Assembly (NCBI GenBank): GCA_016791365.1
Contig: JAEUMT010000008.1
Span: 1-64,000 of the forward strand
Direction of reading: 5' to 3'
DNA length: 64,000 nt
From: Hyphomonadaceae bacterium
GTDB lineage: Bacteria > Pseudomonadota > Alphaproteobacteria > Caulobacterales > Aquidulcibacteraceae
Position 1 is the stretch's first letter, and the number at the start of each line of letters is the position of its first letter. Position numbers and translations under genes: made by a program. The notes below the pieces were generated by a model. That model searched no databases. It was not told the origin of the DNA and was given only the letters and a program-made list of their open reading frames with translations. Below, one piece after another: positions 11,135 to 42,867 of the stretch.

Positions 11135-11243
11135 TCCCCTTCTCCCTTGCGGAGAAGGGGTTAGGGGATGAGGGGCGTTCAAACACGCAGGCGCCGCTCG
11201 TTGGAGCGCCCCTGACTCCGGTCGCTTGGCGACCGACCCTCTC
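11135..11243. repeat. C/G-rich palindromic repeat, family R2, copy a
   Basis: The first hairpin, CCCCTTCTCC (11136-11145) with GGAGAAGGGG (11151-11160), is followed by GTTAGGGGATGAGGGGCGTTC. A second half holds GGTCGC-TTG-GCGACC and the hairpin CCCTCTC-CGC-GAGAGGG. The layout (C-rich hairpin, GAGGGGCGTTC core, second C-rich hairpin) matches the copies at 30024-30132 and 41085-41205. Confidence 0.65.
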
Positions 11244-29569: not shown

Positions 29570-30022
29570 TCACCCCAGCCGCCGCTTCGCCTCGCGTTCG
29601 AACGCCGCCATGATCCGTGATGCGAGCTTGTCCTTGTTCGCGGAGATCGCCGCTTGCAGCACCGGGTTCTTGAACTCGTAGGCGATCCAATAGCGGACAT
29701 GCGCGCCGTTCTCGTGCGGCTTGAACCACCATTTGTTGGCGAGCGAATGCAGCGGGCCTTTGACCAGCGCGACCTCCACCTCCCCTTTCGCCGGCTCGCA
29801 GCGCACGCTGGTCGCGAACGTCACTTTGATCGCCTGCCAGCCCACTTCCGCTTCGGCGACGCCATGCCAACCGCCGGCTTCGCGCGGCTCTTCCTTGGTC
29901 ACGCGCATCCTCGTCAGGAAAGGCACGAACTCGGGATAGACGCGCACATCGCCGACCAGCCGGCACAAATCCTCAGGCGCATACGGCAGCACGCGCTCGG
30001 CTTCGATGACGGTTCTGCTCAT
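29570..30022 (-). CDS. Coq10/RatA-type START-domain protein
   Basis: 150-residue lipid-binding START-like protein. SRTVIEAERVLPYAPEDLCRLVGDVRVYPEFVPF is split over a typical N-terminus, and the core has NKWWFKPHENGAHVRYWIAYEFKNP. Coq10 proteins carry ubiquinone for respiration; the toxin annotation RatA is an old alternative. The start MSRTVIEA at 30022 sits at the edge of a palindromic repeat, whose GGGGCGGGGA replaces a normal Shine-Dalgarno. Position next to lipA is conserved in the class. Confidence 0.87.
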   Translation of the reverse strand: MSRTVIEAERVLPYAPEDLCRLVGDVRVYPEFVPFLTRMRVTKEEPREAGGWHGVAEAEVGWQAIKVTFATSVRCEPAKGEVEVALVKGPLHSLANKWWFKPHENGAHVRYWIAYEFKNPVLQAAISANKDKLASRIMAAFEREAKRRLG

Positions 30023-30023
30023 T

Positions 30024-30132
30024 CCCCGCCCCCTCGTGGGGCGGGGGCGGGGGGTGAGGGGCGTTCCGACACGCCAACGTCGGCGGAAGCTGAACGCCCA
30101 CCCACCCTGCCCTCCCCCACAAGGGGGGAGGG
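30024..30132. repeat. C/G-rich palindromic repeat R2, copy b (intergenic)
   Basis: CCCCGCCCC paired with GGGGCGGGG (30024-30046), then the GGTGAGGGGCGTTCCGACAC core, then CCCTCCCCC-ACAA-GGGGGGAGGG (30110-30132). It fills most of the gap between coq10 and lipA. Read on the plus strand it gives [20 protein letters not shown], nearly the linker peptide of PdhB ([20 protein letters not shown]), and its DNA aligns with the pdhB coding strand at 41205-41085. Confidence 0.88.
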
Positions 30133-30161
30133 TTTGCGCGTTCTGCAGTGACGGATCGACA

Positions 30162-31330: not shown

Positions 31331-32899
31331 ATGGCGCAACGTCCTTTCGAACTGTCGCGCACGCGCGTCACTCTGTTCGAAGCTCTGCTGCGGGCCCGCG
31401 ATAAAAAGGGCGGCAAGTATCAGATCATCGAGGATCACGATCGCAAGCCGATGAGCTATGACGATCTGATCCGCGCCGCGTTCGCGCTGGGCGGAAAGCT
31501 CGACACACTAATCAAGCGCCGCGAAACCGCGGGCGTGCTGCTGCCGACAGGTGTCGGCTGCGCGGTGACGTTCTTCGCGCTTCACGCCATCGGCCGCACG
31601 CCGGCGATGTTGAACTTCACCGCCGGCATCATGAACCTTCGCTCCGCTTGCGAAGCGGCGAATGTCCGCAAGATTTTGACCTCGCGCGTCTTCATCAAGA
31701 AGGCAGGCCTTGAGTCGCTTGCGAATGAACTCTCCAAGCACGCCCAGCTGATTTACCTCGAAGACGTCCGCAAGACCGTCGACATCGGCGACAAGGTCAT
31801 CGCGTTGCTGAAAGGCGCCTTCCCGCGCATGTTCGCGGCGAAAGCCAACCCGGACGATACGGGCGTTATTCTCTTCACGTCAGGCTCGTACGGCACGCCG
31901 AAAGGCGCGGTGCTCAGCCACGCCAACATCGTGGCCAATGTCGAGCAATGCTATTCGTACGTGCCGTTCAAGCCGGCCTGGTCATTCTTCTGCCCGCTGC
32001 CGATGTTTCATAGCTTCGGGCTGACGGGCGGCGTTCTGTTGCCGCTCTTCACCGGCCACAAGACCTTCCTCTTCCCCTCGCCGCTGCAGGTGAAAGAGAT
32101 TCCGAAACTCATCCGTGAGACCGGCGCCAACGTCTTCTTCGCCACCGACACGTTCGCGCAGCAATACGCGCGCAACGCCGCCGACGGCGATTTGAACTGC
32201 ATCGAGCTCATGGTTTGCGGGGCAGAGCGCGTGAAGCCTGAGACGCGCGAGCTCTACAAGTCGCGCTTCGATGTCGAATTGCTCGAAGGTTATGGAGCGA
32301 CGGAAGCGTCGCCGGTGATCTCGATCAATCTGCCGGACAACAACAAGCACGGCACGGTCGGCGCGTTCTTGCCTGGTATCGAATGGCGCCTTGAACCCGT
32401 ACCCGGCATCGAAGGCGGCCAACGGCTCTACGTACGCGGCCCGAACGTGATGCGCGGCTATCTCGATCCGACCAAACCGTTCGGCATCGATCTCCTGCCG
32501 CAAGGCTGGCACGACACCGGCGACGTTGTTGACGTCGATCAAGACGGCTTCATCCGTATCCTTGGCCGCGTGAAGCGCTTTGCGAAAGTGGGCGGCGAGA
32601 TGGTCTCGCTGAATGCGGTCGAAGCTTACGCGCAGACCGTGTGGCCCGACCATTTGCACGCCGCCGTCGCTCTCCCCGATTCACGCAAGGGCGAGCGCAT
32701 CATCCTCTTCACCGATCACGCCGGCGCCACCAGCGAAGAACTGCAAGCCTGGTGCAAAGCCAACGGCGCAAGCGAACTCGCGGTGCCGAAGAAGATTGTC
32801 GTGGTCGATGAGATTCCGGTGCTGGGCAGTGGCAAGACCGATTACGTCGTGATGCAGCGCATGGCGGCTGAACGCTTCGCTGAGGCCAAAGCGGCGTGA
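31331..32899 (+). CDS. Acyl-ACP/acyl-CoA ligase (ANL family, Aas-like)
   Basis: 522 residues of the AMP-forming acyl-activating family. P-loop-like motif LFTSGSYGTPKGAVLSH (residues about 177-193), LLEGYGATEASPVI, DTGDVVDVDQDGFIRILGRVKRFAKVGGEMVSL and the lysine in LGSGKTDYVVM (K about 505). It resembles the ligase half of the Aas acyltransferase/acyl-ACP synthetase, which recycles fatty acids in phospholipids. GGAGG at 31316-31320 supports ATG 31331. The GTGA overlap couples it to the next lipoprotein gene. A diverged second copy of its 3' end is at 33310-33548. Confidence 0.88.
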   Translation: MAQRPFELSRTRVTLFEALLRARDKKGGKYQIIEDHDRKPMSYDDLIRAAFALGGKLDTLIKRRETAGVLLPTGVGCAVTFFALHAIGRTPAMLNFTAGIMNLRSACEAANVRKILTSRVFIKKAGLESLANELSKHAQLIYLEDVRKTVDIGDKVIALLKGAFPRMFAAKANPDDTGVILFTSGSYGTPKGAVLSHANIVANVEQCYSYVPFKPAWSFFCPLPMFHSFGLTGGVLLPLFTGHKTFLFPSPLQVKEIPKLIRETGANVFFATDTFAQQYARNAADGDLNCIELMVCGAERVKPETRELYKSRFDVELLEGYGATEASPVISINLPDNNKHGTVGAFLPGIEWRLEPVPGIEGGQRLYVRGPNVMRGYLDPTKPFGIDLLPQGWHDTGDVVDVDQDGFIRILGRVKRFAKVGGEMVSLNAVEAYAQTVWPDHLHAAVALPDSRKGERIILFTDHAGATSEELQAWCKANGASELAVPKKIVVVDEIPVLGSGKTDYVVMQRMAAERFAEAKAA

Positions 32900-33255: not shown

Positions 33256-33298
33256 CGCTTCCAGCATGGCTTCGTGCATCATTTCTAACAGCGTCGGT
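33256..33298 (-). pseudogene. Remnant of the 3' end of lpd
   Basis: Bases 33269-33298 match 33998-34027, inside the 3' end of intact lpd, at 29 of 30 positions or nearly so, in the same orientation. Translated on the minus strand it gives TLLEMMHEAMLEA, against TLSEMMHEAVLDA in Lpd. Nothing else of lpd is present. The break lies near 33299. Confidence 0.85.
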
Positions 33299-33309: not shown

Positions 33310-33548
33310 CAGCGCCTCTCCGATGGCAAGAAAGCCGGCGCTGCCTCTCCATTGCTGTTCACCGATCACGCCGACGCGAATACAGAGCACCTCAAGCCTG
33401 GTGCAAGGCCAACGGCGCGAGCGAGCTTGCAGTGCCGAAGAAGATCGTCGTCGTCGACGAGATTCCTGTGCTTGGCAGCGGCAAGACGGATTGTGTCGTG
33501 ATGCAGCGCATGGCGGCTGGGCGGCTTGCTGAGGCGAAGGCGGCTTAG
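33310..33548 (+). pseudogene. Second, diverged copy of the ligase 3' end
   Basis: From about 33354 the DNA follows the ligase gene (32713 onwards): LFTDHAD, a one-base slip, then QAWCKANGASELAVPKKIVV, and on to a stop at 33548 whose last residues are GRLAEAKAA against ERFAEAKAA in the intact gene. There is no start and the frame breaks once, so it is a remnant. With the lpd remnant to its left it marks a tandem duplication of the ligase-to-lpd interval. Confidence 0.88.
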
Positions 33549-33960: not shown

Positions 33961-35370
33961 CTAAACGTGCAGCACTCTTCCGTACGCATCGAGCACCGCT
34001 TCGTGCATCATTTCTGACAGCGTCGGGTGGGGGAAGACGGTTTCCATGAGTTCGTGCTCGGTTGTCTCGGTCTGCATGGCGATGGCGTAGCCTTGGATGA
34101 GTTCGGTCACTTCGGCGCCGATCATGTGCGCGCCGAGGAGTTCGCCAGTCTTGGCGTCGAACACGACTTTGACCATGCCCTGATCTTCGCCGAGCGCAAT
34201 CGCCTTGCCGTTGCCGACGAACGGAAAGCGGCCGACGCGCACTTCCCGGCCACCGGCTTTCGCCTTCGCCTCGGTGAGGCCGACGCTGGCGACTTGCGGA
34301 TGCGAATACGTGCAACCCGGAATGCGCTCCTTGATCATCGGATGCGGCTTCTGCCCGGCGATGGCTTCAATGCAGATGATGCCCTCGTGGCTCGCTTTGT
34401 GCGCCAGCCACGGCGCGCCGGTGACATCGCCAATCGCATAGAGCCCGGCGACATTGGTTTTGCCGTAGCCGTCGGTGACGATGTGACCGCGATCGGTTTT
34501 GACGTTGAGGCCTTCAAGTCCAAGGTTTTCGATATTGCCGGTGATGCCAACGGCGACAATGGCGTGTGACGCCGTCAGCGTTTCTTCTTTGCCGTTCGAC
34601 GAAACGACAGCCTCAACACCGTTCGCCGTCGCCTTCAGCGATTTGGCCTCGGTGGAGGTGAGAATCTTCATACCTTCCTTCTCGTAGCGCTTCTTCGCGA
34701 ACGCCGAGATTTCCTCGTCCTCAACCGGCAACACGCGATCGAGCAATTCAACCACCGTCGTCTTCACACCGAACGCCGCGTAGAAGCTGGCGAACTCGAT
34801 GCCGATGGCGCCTGAGCCGAACACAAGCAACGATTCCGGCCACGACGGCGGCGTCATCGCATCGCGATAGGTCCAGATGCGCTTGCCGTCGGCCTTCAAG
34901 CCAGCCGCTGGAATTTCGCGCGCACGCGCGCCGGTGGCGAGGATGACGTGCTTGGCTTCGTACGCCGCGTCTTTGCCGTCCTTGCCTTTCACGATCACCT
35001 TCGGGCTCGCGCTGCCCTTCTCCAAGCGCGCTTCGCCTTCGATCACCGTGATCTTGTTCTTCTTCATCAAAAACTGAACGCCCTTCTCCATGCGTCCAGC
35101 CACGCCGCGCGACCGCTTCACGACGGCTTCGGGATCGAACTTCAGACCTTCGATCGTGAGCCCGAAATCCTTTGCATGCTGCGCGTTGCGATAGACTTCC
35201 GCCGAGCGGAGCAGCGCTTTTGTCGGGATGCAACCCCAGTTGAGGCAGATGCCGCCTAAGCGGTCGCGCTCGACGATGGCGGTTTTCAAACCAAGCTGCG
35301 AAGCGCGGATGGCGGTGACATAGCCGCCCGGCCCGGAACCGATAACGATGACGTCGAAGGATGTGCTCAT
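33961..35370 (-). CDS. lpd: Dihydrolipoyl dehydrogenase (E3)
   Basis: 469-residue FAD flavoenzyme that reoxidises dihydrolipoamide in PDH and related complexes. FAD site VIGSGPGGYVTAIRA, redox-active disulfide GGICLNWGCIPTKAL, NAD site LVFGSGAIGIEFASF, and the active-site His-Glu pair in HPHPTLSEMMHE. It is separated from pdhC by membrane-protein genes, MarC and a receiver gene, although all are on the minus strand except the receiver. Confidence 0.96.
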   Translation of the reverse strand: MSTSFDVIVIGSGPGGYVTAIRASQLGLKTAIVERDRLGGICLNWGCIPTKALLRSAEVYRNAQHAKDFGLTIEGLKFDPEAVVKRSRGVAGRMEKGVQFLMKKNKITVIEGEARLEKGSASPKVIVKGKDGKDAAYEAKHVILATGARAREIPAAGLKADGKRIWTYRDAMTPPSWPESLLVFGSGAIGIEFASFYAAFGVKTTVVELLDRVLPVEDEEISAFAKKRYEKEGMKILTSTEAKSLKATANGVEAVVSSNGKEETLTASHAIVAVGITGNIENLGLEGLNVKTDRGHIVTDGYGKTNVAGLYAIGDVTGAPWLAHKASHEGIICIEAIAGQKPHPMIKERIPGCTYSHPQVASVGLTEAKAKAGGREVRVGRFPFVGNGKAIALGEDQGMVKVVFDAKTGELLGAHMIGAEVTELIQGYAIAMQTETTEHELMETVFPHPTLSEMMHEAVLDAYGRVLHV

Positions 35371-35425: not shown

Positions 35426-35563
35426 CCACCTATTCCCGGATGAACGCGCAGCGTTCAGTCCGGGACCCATAAACACGTTTGCTCTTCGCAAGAGCACAAT
35501 CGGTTGAGAGTCGGGGTTATGGGTCCCGGGCTCGATGCTCCGCATCGCCCCGGGAATGGGTGG
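35426..35563. repeat. Long mosaic palindrome (family R4) next to marC
   Basis: CCACCTATTCCCGG (35426-35439) and CCGGGAATGGGTGG (35550-35563) pair with one mismatch. Inside them GGGACCCATAA (35462-35472) and TTATGGGTCCC (35516-35526) pair perfectly, and small hairpins (CTCTTCGCAAGAG, CGATGCTCCGCATCG) fill the rest. The element ends one base before the marC stop codon and likely ends its transcript. It resembles the R3 repeat in layout. Confidence 0.8.
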
Positions 35564-38245: not shown

Positions 38246-39571
38246 TCAGAGCAGCATCGCCATGGGGTCTTCCAGGAAACTCTTGAAAGCTTTCAGGAAC
38301 GCCGCACCAAGCGCGCCGTCCACAACGCGGTGATCACAGGTGACCGTGACCGTCATCATGGTTGCGATCGCCAGCGCGTCGTTCTTCACGATCGGGCGCT
38401 TTTCGCCGGCGCCGATCGACATGATCATGCCGTGCGGCTCATTGATGATCGAAGCGAAGCTCTTGATGCCGAGCATGCCCATGTTCGAGATCGTAAACGT
38501 GCCGCCCTGAAATTCCTCGGGCTTCAACCTCTTTTCGCGCGCGCGCTGCGCCAGATCGGCCATCTCGGCGCTGATCTGCGCCAGGCCCTTGGTCTCAGCG
38601 GCCCACACGATTGGCGTGATCAGCCCATGCGGAATGGCGACGGCGACGCCGATATCGGCATGGTGGTGGATCGCGATGCCGTCTGGCGTGTAGCTGGCGT
38701 TGGCTTCCGGCACGAGTTTCAGCGCAAGCGCCGCCGCCTTGATGCACATGTCGTTGACGGAGATTTTCACGCCGTTGTCGGCGAAGCGCTTGTTGATCTC
38801 GCCGCGGGCTTTCAGGAGCGCGTCGATTTCGAGATCTATGGTCAGCGGAAAATGCGGCACGTCGCGGAACGAGGCCGTCATGCGCTTGGCGATGGTTTTG
38901 CGCATCATATCGAGCGGCACGAGATCGTAAGTGCCTGAGCGAATGCCGTAGCTTTCGAGTGTCGCAGGCGCCTGTTGCGGCGCGGGCTTGGAGACCTCAC
39001 GCGATTGCTGCGGCGCTTGTGTCTGCGTGCGCGGTGCTTTCGCAGCGGCTTCGACATCGGCTTTCACGATCCGGCCGTTCGGGCCGGATCCGCTCAAGCC
39101 GCTCAAGTCGATGCCGCCTTGTTCGGCGAGACGGCGTGCGAGCGGCGATGCGAGGATGCGCTCTGAGCCCCCGCCCCCTCGCGGGGCGGGGTCGGGGGTG
39201 GGGGTAGCGGCGGTGCTCTTTGCGGCTGGGCTGCCGCCGTCACCCCTCCCCCTGCCCCCGCCCACAGGGGGCGGGGGTGATTGCTGAGCCTTCAACGTCT
39301 CTTGTTTAGCCGCCGGCTGCGCCGCTTCGCCTTCGCCTGCAAGCGTCGCGATCGGCGTGTTGACCTTCACGCCTTGGCTGCCTTCCGGCACCAGAATTTC
39401 CGCGATCACGCCTTCGTCGACGGCTTCGACTTCCATCGTCGCTTTGTCGGTTTCGATCTCGGCGATGACTTGGCCCGGCTCGATCTTGTCGCCGGCCTTC
39501 ACGTGCCACTTGGCGAGATTGCCTTCCTCCATCGTCGGCGACAGCGCGGGCATAGTGATCTGGGTCGTCAT
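38246..39571 (-). CDS. pdhC: Pyruvate dehydrogenase E2, dihydrolipoyl acetyltransferase
   Basis: 441 residues. Lipoyl domain (1 to about 80, lipoyl Lys43 in [11 protein letters not shown]), long linker (about 81-136), subunit-binding domain (about 139-175: ASPLARRLAEQGGIDLSGL), then the acyltransferase core with the active-site DHRVVDG (His about 414). Residues 98-136 of the linker are encoded by a C/G-rich palindromic repeat (39168-39279), giving Pro/Gly-rich sequence SPPPPVGGGRGRGDGG. The start at 39571 is inferred from the lipoyl domain and overlaps the previous gene stop by 4 bases (ATGA). Confidence 0.95.
   Translation of the reverse strand: MTTQITMPALSPTMEEGNLAKWHVKAGDKIEPGQVIAEIETDKATMEVEAVDEGVIAEILVPEGSQGVKVNTPIATLAGEGEAAQPAAKQETLKAQQSPPPPVGGGRGRGDGGSPAAKSTAATPTPDPAPRGGGGSERILASPLARRLAEQGGIDLSGLSGSGPNGRIVKADVEAAAKAPRTQTQAPQQSREVSKPAPQQAPATLESYGIRSGTYDLVPLDMMRKTIAKRMTASFRDVPHFPLTIDLEIDALLKARGEINKRFADNGVKISVNDMCIKAAALALKLVPEANASYTPDGIAIHHHADIGVAVAIPHGLITPIVWAAETKGLAQISAEMADLAQRAREKRLKPEEFQGGTFTISNMGMLGIKSFASIINEPHGMIMSIGAGEKRPIVKNDALAIATMMTVTVTCDHRVVDGALGAAFLKAFKSFLEDPMAMLL
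39168..39279. repeat. C/G-rich palindromic repeat R2, copy c, inside pdhC
   Basis: CCCCGCCCC with GGGGCGGGG (39168-39191), then GGGGGTGGGGG and a GGCGGTG...GCCGCC region, then CCCCCGCCC-ACA-GGGGGCGGGGG (39255-39277). Its layout is the R2 layout; the core between the hairpins is more diverged than in copies b and d. It is in frame and free of stops in the minus-strand pdhC reading frame. Confidence 0.78.
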
Positions 39572-40072: not shown

Positions 40073-41452
40073 TCACCGGTACGTCACCGCTTTCACGGCA
40101 TCGACGATCTTCTCCACGCTGGGCAACGACAGCGCTTCGAGATTTGCGGCGTACGCCAGCGGCGCATCGACCTGGTGAACGCGCGTCGGCGGCGCGTCGA
40201 GATAGTCGAACGCCTCCGCTGTTACGCGCGCGCAGACCTCGGCGCCGACTCCGGATTGGCCCCAACCTTCTTCGACGGTGACGAGGCGGTTGGTTTTCTT
40301 CACGCTCTCGATAATCGTGGCGGTATCGAGCGGGCGCAGCGTGCGCAGATCGATGACTTCGGCTTCGATGCCTTGCTTTGAAAGCTCGTCCGCCGCTTTC
40401 AGCGAGAGCCCGACCATGCGCGAGTGCGCGGTGATGGTGACGTCGACGCCCTGGCGGCGCACCTTCGCCTTGCCGATCGGTACGACCCAATCCTTCACGT
40501 CCGGAATCTCGAACTCCTGGCCGTAGAGCATCTCGTGCTCGAGGAAGACCACCGGGTTCGGATTGCGAATGGCCGCCTTCAACAAGCCCTTCGCGTCAGC
40601 CGCGTCATACGGAGCGATGACGATGAGGCCCGGTACGTGCGCGTACCAAGACGAATAGTCCTGGCTGTGTTGTGCCGCGACGCGCGAGGCGGCGCCGTTG
40701 GGTCCACGGAAGACGATCGAGGATTTGATCTGGCCGCCAGACATGTAGAGCGTCTTGGCGGCGGAGTTGATGATCTGGTCGATGGCCTGCATGCCAAAAT
40801 TCCAGGTCATGAACTCGACGATTGGTTTCAAACCCGCCATCGCCGCGCCAACGCCGAGGCCAGCAAAGCCGTGCTCGGTGATCGGCGTATCGACCACGCG
40901 TTGTGCGCCGAACTCCTGCAGCAATTCGCGCGTGACTTTGTAAGCGCCCTGATACTCGGCGACTTCTTCACCCATGACAAAGACGCGCTCATCGGCGCGC
41001 ATCTCTTCGGCCATCGCGTCACGCAACGCATCGCGCACGGTGATCTTGATCATCTGCGTGCCGGCTGGGATTTCGAGATCTACGCCCCTCCCCCCTTGTG
41101 GGGGAGGGGTTGGGGTGGGGGGGCGTTCAGCCGTGCGTGAGCTTGAAGGCGGCGGCGCGTCGGACCGCCCCCCACCCCCTGCCCCCGCCCCACGAGGGGG
41201 CGGGGAAGTTTCAGCTTCCCCGCTCAACACCGCGATCGGCGTATTCACCTTCACGCCCTGCGCGCCTTCTTCGATCAGGAGCGCCGTCACCGTGCCTTCG
41301 TCGACGGCTTCGACTTCCATCGTCGCCTTATCGGTCTCGATCTCGGCGATGACTTGGCCGGGTTCGATCGTGTCGCCGACTTTGACGAGCCACTTCGTGA
41401 GATTGCCCTCCTCCATCGTCGGAGAAAGCGCGGGCATGAGGATTTGCGTCAT
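40073..41452 (-). CDS. pdhB: Pyruvate dehydrogenase E1 beta subunit with N-terminal lipoyl domain
   Basis: 459 residues. Lipoyl domain first (1 to about 80; lipoyl Lys42 in [11 protein letters not shown]), then a linker, then the TPP-enzyme beta subunit (about 130-459: [35 protein letters not shown] broken over motifs, [26 protein letters not shown]). The E1-beta/lipoyl fusion is standard in alphaproteobacteria. Linker residues 83-123 ([20 protein letters not shown] and on) are encoded by a palindromic repeat at 41085-41205. The start overlaps the MAPEG gene stop by one base. Confidence 0.95.
41085..41205. repeat. C/G-rich palindromic repeat R2, copy d, inside pdhB
   Basis: CCCCTCCCC with GGGGAGGGG (41085-41109), then GTTGGGGTGGGGGGGCGTTC, then CCCCCGCCCC-ACGA-GGGGGCGGGG (41182-41205). 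The reverse strand aligns almost base for base with the intergenic copy at 30024-30132. It is in the pdhB frame with no stop and encodes residues about 83-123 of the linker. Confidence 0.88.
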
Positions 41453-41868: not shown

Positions 41869-42867
41869 TTAAGCTTCGATGTAAATATCCGTCATGAGTT
41901 CGCTCGGATCAGGCTCCGGGCTTTCTTGCGCGAAGGTGGCGCTCTCGCTGACGATGGCGCGGATTTCGCGATCGGTCGCCTTCAGATCATCCTCGGTCGC
42001 GTAACCCGCGTCGGTGATCAGCTTCTTCACGTGATCGATCGGATCGCGCTTGGCTTTTTGCTCGTCGACTTCTTCCTTGGTGCGATATTTCGCCGGGTCG
42101 GACATCGAATGGCCGCGATAGCGGTAGGTCTTCATTTCCAAAAGCGTCGGGCCGTTGCCGGCGCGGGCGTTTTCAACGGCGCGCTTGCCGGCTTCGCGCA
42201 CGGCGACGACATCCATGCCGTCCACTTCTTCGCCGGGAATGTTGAAGCTCACGCCGCGCTTATGCAGGTGCGTTTCAGAGCTGGAACGCTGGATCGACGT
42301 GCCCATCGCGTACTGGTTGTTTTCTACGATATAGACAACCGGCAGCTTCCACAGGCTCGCCATGTTGAAGCTCTCATAGACTTGGCCTTGGTTTGCCGCG
42401 CCGTCGCCGAAGTACGTGAGACAGACTTTTCCGTCGCTGCGATACTTGTTCGCGAACGCGAGGCCGGTGCCGAGGGAAACTTGCGCGCCGACAATGCCGT
42501 GGCCGCCGTAGAACGCCTTCTCGATGCTGAACATGTGCATCGAGCCGCCCTTGCCGCGCGAGTATCCGCCGCTGCGGCCGGTGAGTTCCGCCATCACGCC
42601 ATTCGCCGTCATGCCCGCCGCGAGCATGTGACCGTGATCGCGATAAGCGGTGATGACTTGGTCGCCGTCGCGCAGCGCGGCTTGCATGCCGACGACGACG
42701 GCTTCCTGCCCGATATAGAGATGGCAAAACCCGCCGATGAGCCCCATGCCGTAGAGCTGGCCGGCACGCTCCTCGAAGCGGCGGATCAGCAACATGTCGC
42801 GATAGTACTGAAGCAGTTCGTCCTTGGTCGCTTCCGCGCTCTGCTGCTTGCCGTTGCCTTTGGCCAT
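41869..42867 (-). CDS. pdhA: Pyruvate dehydrogenase E1 alpha subunit
   Basis: 332 residues, TPP-dependent E1 alpha. [17 protein letters not shown], the TPP motif [20 protein letters not shown] and NNQYAMGTS, and the phosphorylation-loop-like [19 protein letters not shown] are all present. It precedes the MAPEG and pdhB genes and starts 128 bases after ftsB on the same strand. E1 decarboxylates pyruvate and loads acetyl on the lipoyl groups. Confidence 0.95.

Follow-up and report, generated by a model that had tools for sequence, protein, structure and literature searches.

The Rickettsia palindromic elements (RPEs; Ogata 2000, 2002), as recounted in the portion of a 2024 review to which we refer here, are palindromes of ~150 bp that form several families per genome and lie in frame in unrelated genes; they also occur outside genes, and species share them unevenly (PMC10969869). 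The same portion presents RPEs as unusually frequent in-frame inserts and holds a similar process to be conceivable in other prokaryotes. Intragenic palindromes are already known outside Rickettsia. GTAG/CGTC REPs are found, as palindromic units and as dimers, in genes of several bacteria, free-living alphaproteobacteria included (Di Nocera 2013, PMC3733652). The main text of that paper gives excinuclease ABC proteins, DNA polymerase I and tRNA synthetases as intragenic targets, notes that two Xanthomonas species differ in the REP found at roughly one position of recB, and suggests neutral REP insertion in flexible linkers or loops; in this main text the words 'pyruvate' and 'dehydrogenase' occur nowhere, and linkers of the pyruvate dehydrogenase (PDH) complex are not mentioned. 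Prokaryotic MITEs such as ERIC/RU and QMITE also have intragenic copies, sometimes fused in frame (PMC10969869 and PMC5896051, in excerpt; see also PMC2759123).

The element analysed here, class A, fills the interdomain linker of the PDH E1 beta subunit (PdhB). As far as the texts cited above describe those systems, it resembles RPEs by its behaviour, being an imperfect palindrome of ~100-150 bp with many copies, in frame in unrelated conserved proteins that have insert-free orthologues. It departs from them in its host, which is GC-rich, Caulobacterales-like and outside Rickettsiales, in its GC-rich Pro/Gly peptide, and in that lipoyl-arm linkers are replaced and different families stand at the same sites in sister species. 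Like GTAG/CGTC REPs, class A is palindromic and lies within genes, an excinuclease, DNA polymerase I and a tRNA synthetase among them; unlike those REPs it is longer and composite, carries no GTAG/CGTC tag, and has stems without A/T pairs at their start. In searches of the open-licence literature, supplements aside, we recognised no account of palindromic elements occupying lipoyl-arm linkers or proteins of Caulobacterales. What is new, then, is the untagged, longer families in a Caulobacterales-like genus, the replacement of linkers in two PDH subunits, and the turnover between species.

The PdhB linker and its intergenic counterpart

The window is the whole stretch of 64,000 nucleotides that was analysed; its features are collected in Table 1. 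The pdhB gene starts with the ATG at 41452 and reads down to 40073. A first-pass annotation, made from the sequence alone, had traced residues ~83-123 of PdhB to a palindromic repeat, and the stretch 41085-41207 is indeed a full copy of an imperfect palindrome of ~110 bp. In a genome search it is matched by the covariance model R1 at E = 6e-12 (the copy being among the 15 used to build the model), and a BLAST of the whole genome gives E = 2e-23 for it. Folded as RNA it reaches -85.4 kcal/mol (z -3.7; one of 200 shuffles is equally good), and the intergenic copy at 30022-30133 reaches -84 kcal/mol (z -5.7). In the coding orientation the two DNAs align end to end and nearly base for base, as had been claimed, with gaps solely in the centre and the C-run. 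With up to three mismatches allowed, the 23-nt hairpin CCCTCCCCCACAAGGGGGGAGGG has two matches in the window, each of them exact, and no match in any of 100 shuffles.

Could a Pro/Ala/Gly-rich linker simply have come to resemble a GC-rich intergenic hairpin by chance? Both are GC-rich and of low complexity, and many relatives have Ala/Pro-rich linkers at this place. The local alignment score of the pair is 71.5, however, whereas 1000 dinucleotide shuffles average 15.4 (sd 2.5) and never exceed 28.5; the hairpins at both ends are preserved; and clean empty sites exist in ArgS, PolA and MnmC of sister species. The similarity is thus more than one of Pro/Gly composition: chance composition is ruled out by the shuffle test and the empty sites, and we give convergence practically no credence.

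The claim that the intergenic copy encodes the same peptide needs a correction. The plus-strand translation agrees, and it falls inside an open frame, 29654-30151, antisense to the flanking genes, but this frame looks spurious; the copy lies in no credible gene, and the peptide in common with PdhB is simply DNA in common. The copy reaches up to the probable start codon of the minus-strand gene that follows, which by eye looks COQ10-like, and it comes directly after a probable lipA; it could form a strong hairpin in the 5' leader of the COQ10-like gene. Two further copies in the window were absent from the first-pass annotation, those at 11135-11236 and at 39167-39278; the latter is in frame in E2, with the coding frame open on either side. 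The R1 search placed no copy within the E3 gene.

Table 1. Annotated features of the window, and class A copies lying within genes of this genome
Feature	Position in window	Strand	Details
pdhB, E1 beta subunit of pyruvate dehydrogenase; lipoyl domain at the N-terminus	40073..41452	-	NF008854 E = 1e-235, residues 2-460
PdhB Pfam domains			Biotin_lipoyl 4-77, Transket_pyr 137-312, Transketolase_C 328-450
Class A element, PdhB linker, residues ~83-123	41085..41207	-	In frame, between lipoyl domain and transketolase-type catalytic domain
Pyruvate dehydrogenase E2, dihydrolipoamide acetyltransferase	38246..39571	-	TIGR01349 E = 2e-157; Biotin_lipoyl, E3_binding 139-174, 2-oxoacid_dh
Diverged class A element, E2 linker	39167..39278	-	In frame, between lipoyl and E3-binding domains; R1 E = 7e-5
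Non-genic class A copy	30022..30133	.	Between two minus-strand genes, abutting probable start of downstream one
Weaker class A copy	11135..11236	.	R1 E = 4e-5; stretch without convincing gene
pdhA, E1 subunit alpha	41869..42867	-	TIGR03182 E = 4e-156
Dihydrolipoyl dehydrogenase, E3	33961..35370	-	TIGR01350 E = 3e-169
Genic copy, ArgS			In DALR domain
Genic copy, PolA			3'-5' exonuclease region
Genic copy, UvrC			In frame
Genic copy, AsnB			Between glutaminase and synthase domains
Genic copy, MetH			Activation domain
Genic copy, PrmA			Before methyltransferase domain
Genic copy, RsmB			Between NusB and methyltransferase domains
Genic copy, MnmC			Between its two enzyme domains
Genic copy, ChrA			Between its two transporter domains
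Genic copy, ligase-associated DEXH helicase			Between its two helicase domains
Genic copy, acyltransferase-3			In frame
Genic copy, ImuB-like protein			Pfam match on left side only; coding scores low

Structure and copy number of class A

Class A is a GC-rich imperfect palindrome of ~110 bp in which a first GC hairpin is followed by a G-run, a variable centre, a C-run and a second GC hairpin. In 15 full-length copies of this genome that were compared, each terminal hairpin is built as CCCTCCCCC-loop-GGGGGAGGG or CCCCGCCCC-loop-GGGGCGGGG. Because the whole element is an imperfect palindrome, R1 scores both strands, and 85 strand-wise matches at E <= 0.01 come down to at least 44 distinct places in the 3.46-Mb genome, a lower bound since 150 of 2059 first-look candidates were scored. 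The repeat family presupposed by the first-pass annotation therefore exists. It extends through the genus, with R1 matches at E <= 1e-3 in at least 28 of 30 genomes (up to 124 candidates scored per genome). In Rfam no family covers the class A copies of the window. An assembly artefact is unlikely: a genome in one contig, G020, has the element in PdhB, E2 and UvrC.

Like MITEs, class A is short, non-autonomous and of inverted-repeat build; MITE-type terminal inverted repeats are present in the sense that the entire element is an imperfect inverted repeat. Unlike the MITEs of the texts cited above, it shows no target-site duplication, none of 34 copies having a direct repeat of 3-9 nt beside the outer hairpin ends, and a search with PF01797 identified neither a parent insertion sequence nor a transposase linked to the element.

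Another possibility is that class A elements represent dimers of REPs whose movement depends on REP-associated tyrosine transposases (RAYTs). The paired hairpins stand in inverted arrangement, as this account would have it, and Y1_Tnp (PF01797) genes are present in 16 of the 30 genus genomes, with three in this one. RAYT and R1 counts are rank-correlated (0.41, p = 0.02) in an exploratory comparison that is uncorrected for kinship and completeness and in which the R1 counts are lower bounds. The tags of that system are nearly missing, however: hairpins of at least seven perfect pairs are found at both ends in 34 of the 44 copies, and among their 136 feet CGTC occurs at none and GTAG at one (GACG and CTAC at two each). 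Moreover, none of the three RAYT genes in this genome, the one inspected, is flanked by class A, and three genomes rich in copies (G020, G013 and G017) have no RAYT match. The link between RAYT genes and class A is weak, and we consider RAYT-borne dimers a rather improbable origin, if the least improbable of the rival accounts.

Plasmid carriage was also considered. No PLSDB plasmid is matched at E <= 1e-3, in a search where the low-complexity filter of BLAST may hide a match, and the idea was set aside. The hairpin core is present in 31 IMG/VR viral contigs (L321-L351), and R1 matches 12 of them at E <= 1e-3; either phages carry the element or host DNA was wrongly binned with the viruses.

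Copies within genes

For all 44 copies the flanks were scored for coding potential and for stop-free frames, using a codon model drawn from nine genes of the window. Sixteen copies have frames that run open through both flanks. We discarded two of them, C5:28644 (L007), which has no Pfam match and low scores, and C53:15096, whose left-side coding score is negative. The remaining 14 of the 44 lie within genes and keep the reading frame; most stand in a loop or between domains (Table 1). Thirteen have family matches on both sides and the fourteenth is the ImuB-like gene; for PrmA and the DEXH helicase the family matches were counted as two stretches or as flanking domains. Likening the PdhB linker to the Rickettsia elements was apt, and the phenomenon is wider than the one enzyme for which the first-pass annotation proposed it. 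The ArgS insert lies between query positions 493 and 538, where 4oby, which we take to be the E. coli enzyme, has only residues 476-486, and that of PolA immediately precedes the part of the protein that aligns with Klenow (query 463, chain 71).

What of the other 30 copies? None is a frame-breaking insertion into clearly scoring coding sequence that is open for at least 240 nt on both sides on one strand, in a test that takes any frame pair and, needing a clear coding score on both sides, misses weak genes of the ImuB-like type. Bacterial coding density is typically about 90%, so that with 14 of 44 the genic copies are depleted. That the genic copies are in frame is the pattern to be expected after filtering for viability.

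Is the element itself selected as an open reading frame? The non-genic copies give no support to this, having on average 3.43 of six frames open against 3.76 in shuffles (sd 0.16), i.e., slightly fewer. Compatibility with coding thus comes from GC content and not from selection on the element.

Empty, filled and refilled sites

PdhB was found in 26 of the 30 same-genus genomes. Its linker is of class A in eight of them, of a second palindrome family, class B (see below), in seven, and of neither kind in eleven. These labels, like those for the other proteins, were assigned by eye on the peptides and then checked by R1 or BLAST. At E <= 0.05, R1 finds the element at all eight class A sites in PdhB (seven at E <= 2e-4, G025 at 0.014), at nine of ten in E2 and at all 12 in UvrC; at the same threshold it has no match at any site called empty in PdhB, E2, UvrC or ArgS, nor in the class B linkers of PdhB. 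UvrC is of class A in 12, of class B in five and empty in six of the 23 labelled genomes. ArgS is filled in G000, G003 and G005, the insert of the last being shortened and missed by R1. At the PolA site R1 matches are found in seven genomes (G000, G005, G009, G012, G013, G021 and G025), and 16 others are without the element, the flanking matches overlapping or lying at most 25 nt apart; five of the clean sites were read directly. In MnmC there are R1 matches in G000, G016 and G001; G020, and perhaps G008, has an element-like peptide that escapes R1. Of the 21 MnmC sites read, 18 are without an element.

The two lipoyl-arm linkers do not go together. G005 has class B in PdhB and class A in E2, and G029 combines class A in PdhB with a native linker in E2, with G017 and G007 showing the reverse; to judge from the sequences, the E2 linker is colonised independently of the PdhB linker. 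In the window's own clade of six (support 100/99, with weaker inner forks) PdhB is of class A in G000, G003 and G029 and native in G004 and G027, and it was not found in G024. On a tree from concatenated ArgS, UvrC and PdhB with the insert columns removed, several branches of which are weak, the fewest state changes are eight for PdhB (26 rows), nine for E2 (24), 11 for UvrC (23) and three for ArgS (27), counts that do not separate gain from loss.

Since trees alone cannot tell the two apart, and since UvrC is filled in most of the species read, the linker might be ancestral, the scattered copies having been exported from genes and the species without the element having lost it. Several observations speak against this. 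ArgS is empty in 24 of the 27 genomes read and filled in only three. Class A is present in the PdhB linker of none of the 12 family- or order-level relatives compared, among which G036 is class B-like, and only one of 80 PdhB loci outside the genus (named records) has an R1 match at E <= 0.01 in the flanks available. Finally, the same element stands in 14 unrelated genes. An ancestral linker is in our judgement very unlikely. That a palindrome turned coding, in frame, between the lipoyl and catalytic domains of PdhB, as the first-pass annotation held, is supported by the repeat family and by the element-free linkers of relatives.

The nearest named relatives of PdhB belong mostly to Caulobacterales, including Brevundimonas, Caulobacteraceae, Henriciella and Asticcacaulis, and none is rickettsial; on this kinship the host genus is probably free-living.

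Effect on the protein

PdhB linkers average 52.9 residues with an element (n = 14) and 43.8 without (n = 11), a difference with p = 0.0009 that is uncorrected for kinship and leaves out G023, whose frame is broken. A full element codes for about 35-44 residues and the mean net gain is ~9, so that much of the native linker must have gone: this is replacement and not simple addition. In ArgS some 10-12 nt of the target have apparently been lost. Lipoyl-arm linkers are known to be disordered tethers. In the AlphaFold model (22 sequences; mean pLDDT 76.3) residues 80-125 of PdhB mostly have pLDDT values of 25-31 and no secondary structure, and this linker, too, is probably a disordered tether.

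Inserts of this kind could also be adaptive, if selection favours linkers made from elements in multidomain enzymes such as PDH. An insert goes with a longer linker, and both lipoyl-arm linkers of the one complex have been colonised independently and repeatedly. Native PDH linkers persist, however, in genomes with ample copies elsewhere (G017 and G007 at PdhB, G008 at E2), and the families and sequences of the inserts vary freely; the inserts are unalignable, so that selection on them is not measurable. An adaptive origin seems to us unlikely, and our default reading is of near-neutral selfish DNA filtered by protein tolerance.

Proposed mechanism

We conclude, with considerable confidence, that a mobile, non-autonomous palindrome with the behaviour of an RPE has one of its genic copies in the PdhB linker. 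Copies would enter by way of a putative trans-acting activity, and most hits on genes would be lost. Those copies that are in frame at tolerant, disordered positions would survive because high GC leaves about half of the frames stop-free and yields a Pro/Gly/Arg-rich, spacer-like peptide. In PdhB the lipoyl arm is tethered by a native Ala/Pro/Lys linker, most of which the insert would have displaced. The families would then replace one another at the same sites, either because a new element inserts once the old one is lost or because copies convert one another.

A broader proposal, which we put forward tentatively and think somewhat doubtful, is that in this genus mobile palindromes are a renewable source of interdomain linkers. 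The lipoyl arms of PdhB and E2, together with UvrC, PolA, ArgS and MnmC, would be standing docking sites at which, in one species after another, insertion or conversion puts a different family in place of the resident element; such spacers would evolve by element turnover and not by point mutation, possibly under selection for linker length.

How selfish palindromes enter working proteins has been an open question since the work on Rickettsia, which is obligate intracellular and hard to manipulate. In the present genus, with 30 sequenced species, there are filled, empty and differently filled versions of sites in ArgS, PDH and PolA. Having these versions side by side in one genus makes direct tests possible of whether the insert is translated, whether it carries a cost and by what machinery it is placed. 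Multidomain enzymes can have linkers that derive from elements, and models of linker evolution by substitution only fail there.

Class B and other repeats

The typical class B peptide is PPPLAGEVRAKRGEG...PLSQPAARPDSSPARGGAS. The family is dispersed genome-wide, with matches at E <= 1e-5 in at least 21 of the 30 genus genomes and at least 26 matches in this one (29 of 48 candidates scored). Among the class B matches listed are the PdhB copies of G005, G008, G022, G006, G018 and G023, but not that of G013. The last, along with E2 of G016 and G022 and UvrC of G016, G018, G003 and G023, was labelled class B by peptide alone; among the matches listed none falls at these places, and G016 has none at all. 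In this genome one of 11 places examined, out of the 26 matches, looks in frame, in a protein of unknown function; to judge from these 11, nearly all class B copies here lie outside genes.

Two broken frames were seen. PdhB of G023 (L141) is broken at its class B element, at a homopolymer in the hairpin, and E2 of G007 (L210) is broken downstream, in the catalytic domain; either sequencing error or real decay would account for them. In G036 (L056 / L061), from another genus of the family, both PdhB and E2 carry a class B-like right half, QSSLRADSSPSRG, like that of the G016 E2, hinting at an older or common subfamily; isolate RI_43 has apparently the same PdhB as G036.

The window also holds two direct duplications, 32737-32895 / 33386-33544 (85%) and 33256-33297 / 33985-34026 (88%). 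The second has the look of a decayed additional copy of the 3' end of the E3 gene, beside the intact gene. Lastly, at 35426-35563 there is a 52-nt inverted repeat pair, 75% complementary and 34 nt apart, which is unlike classes A and B and is perhaps a third palindrome family.
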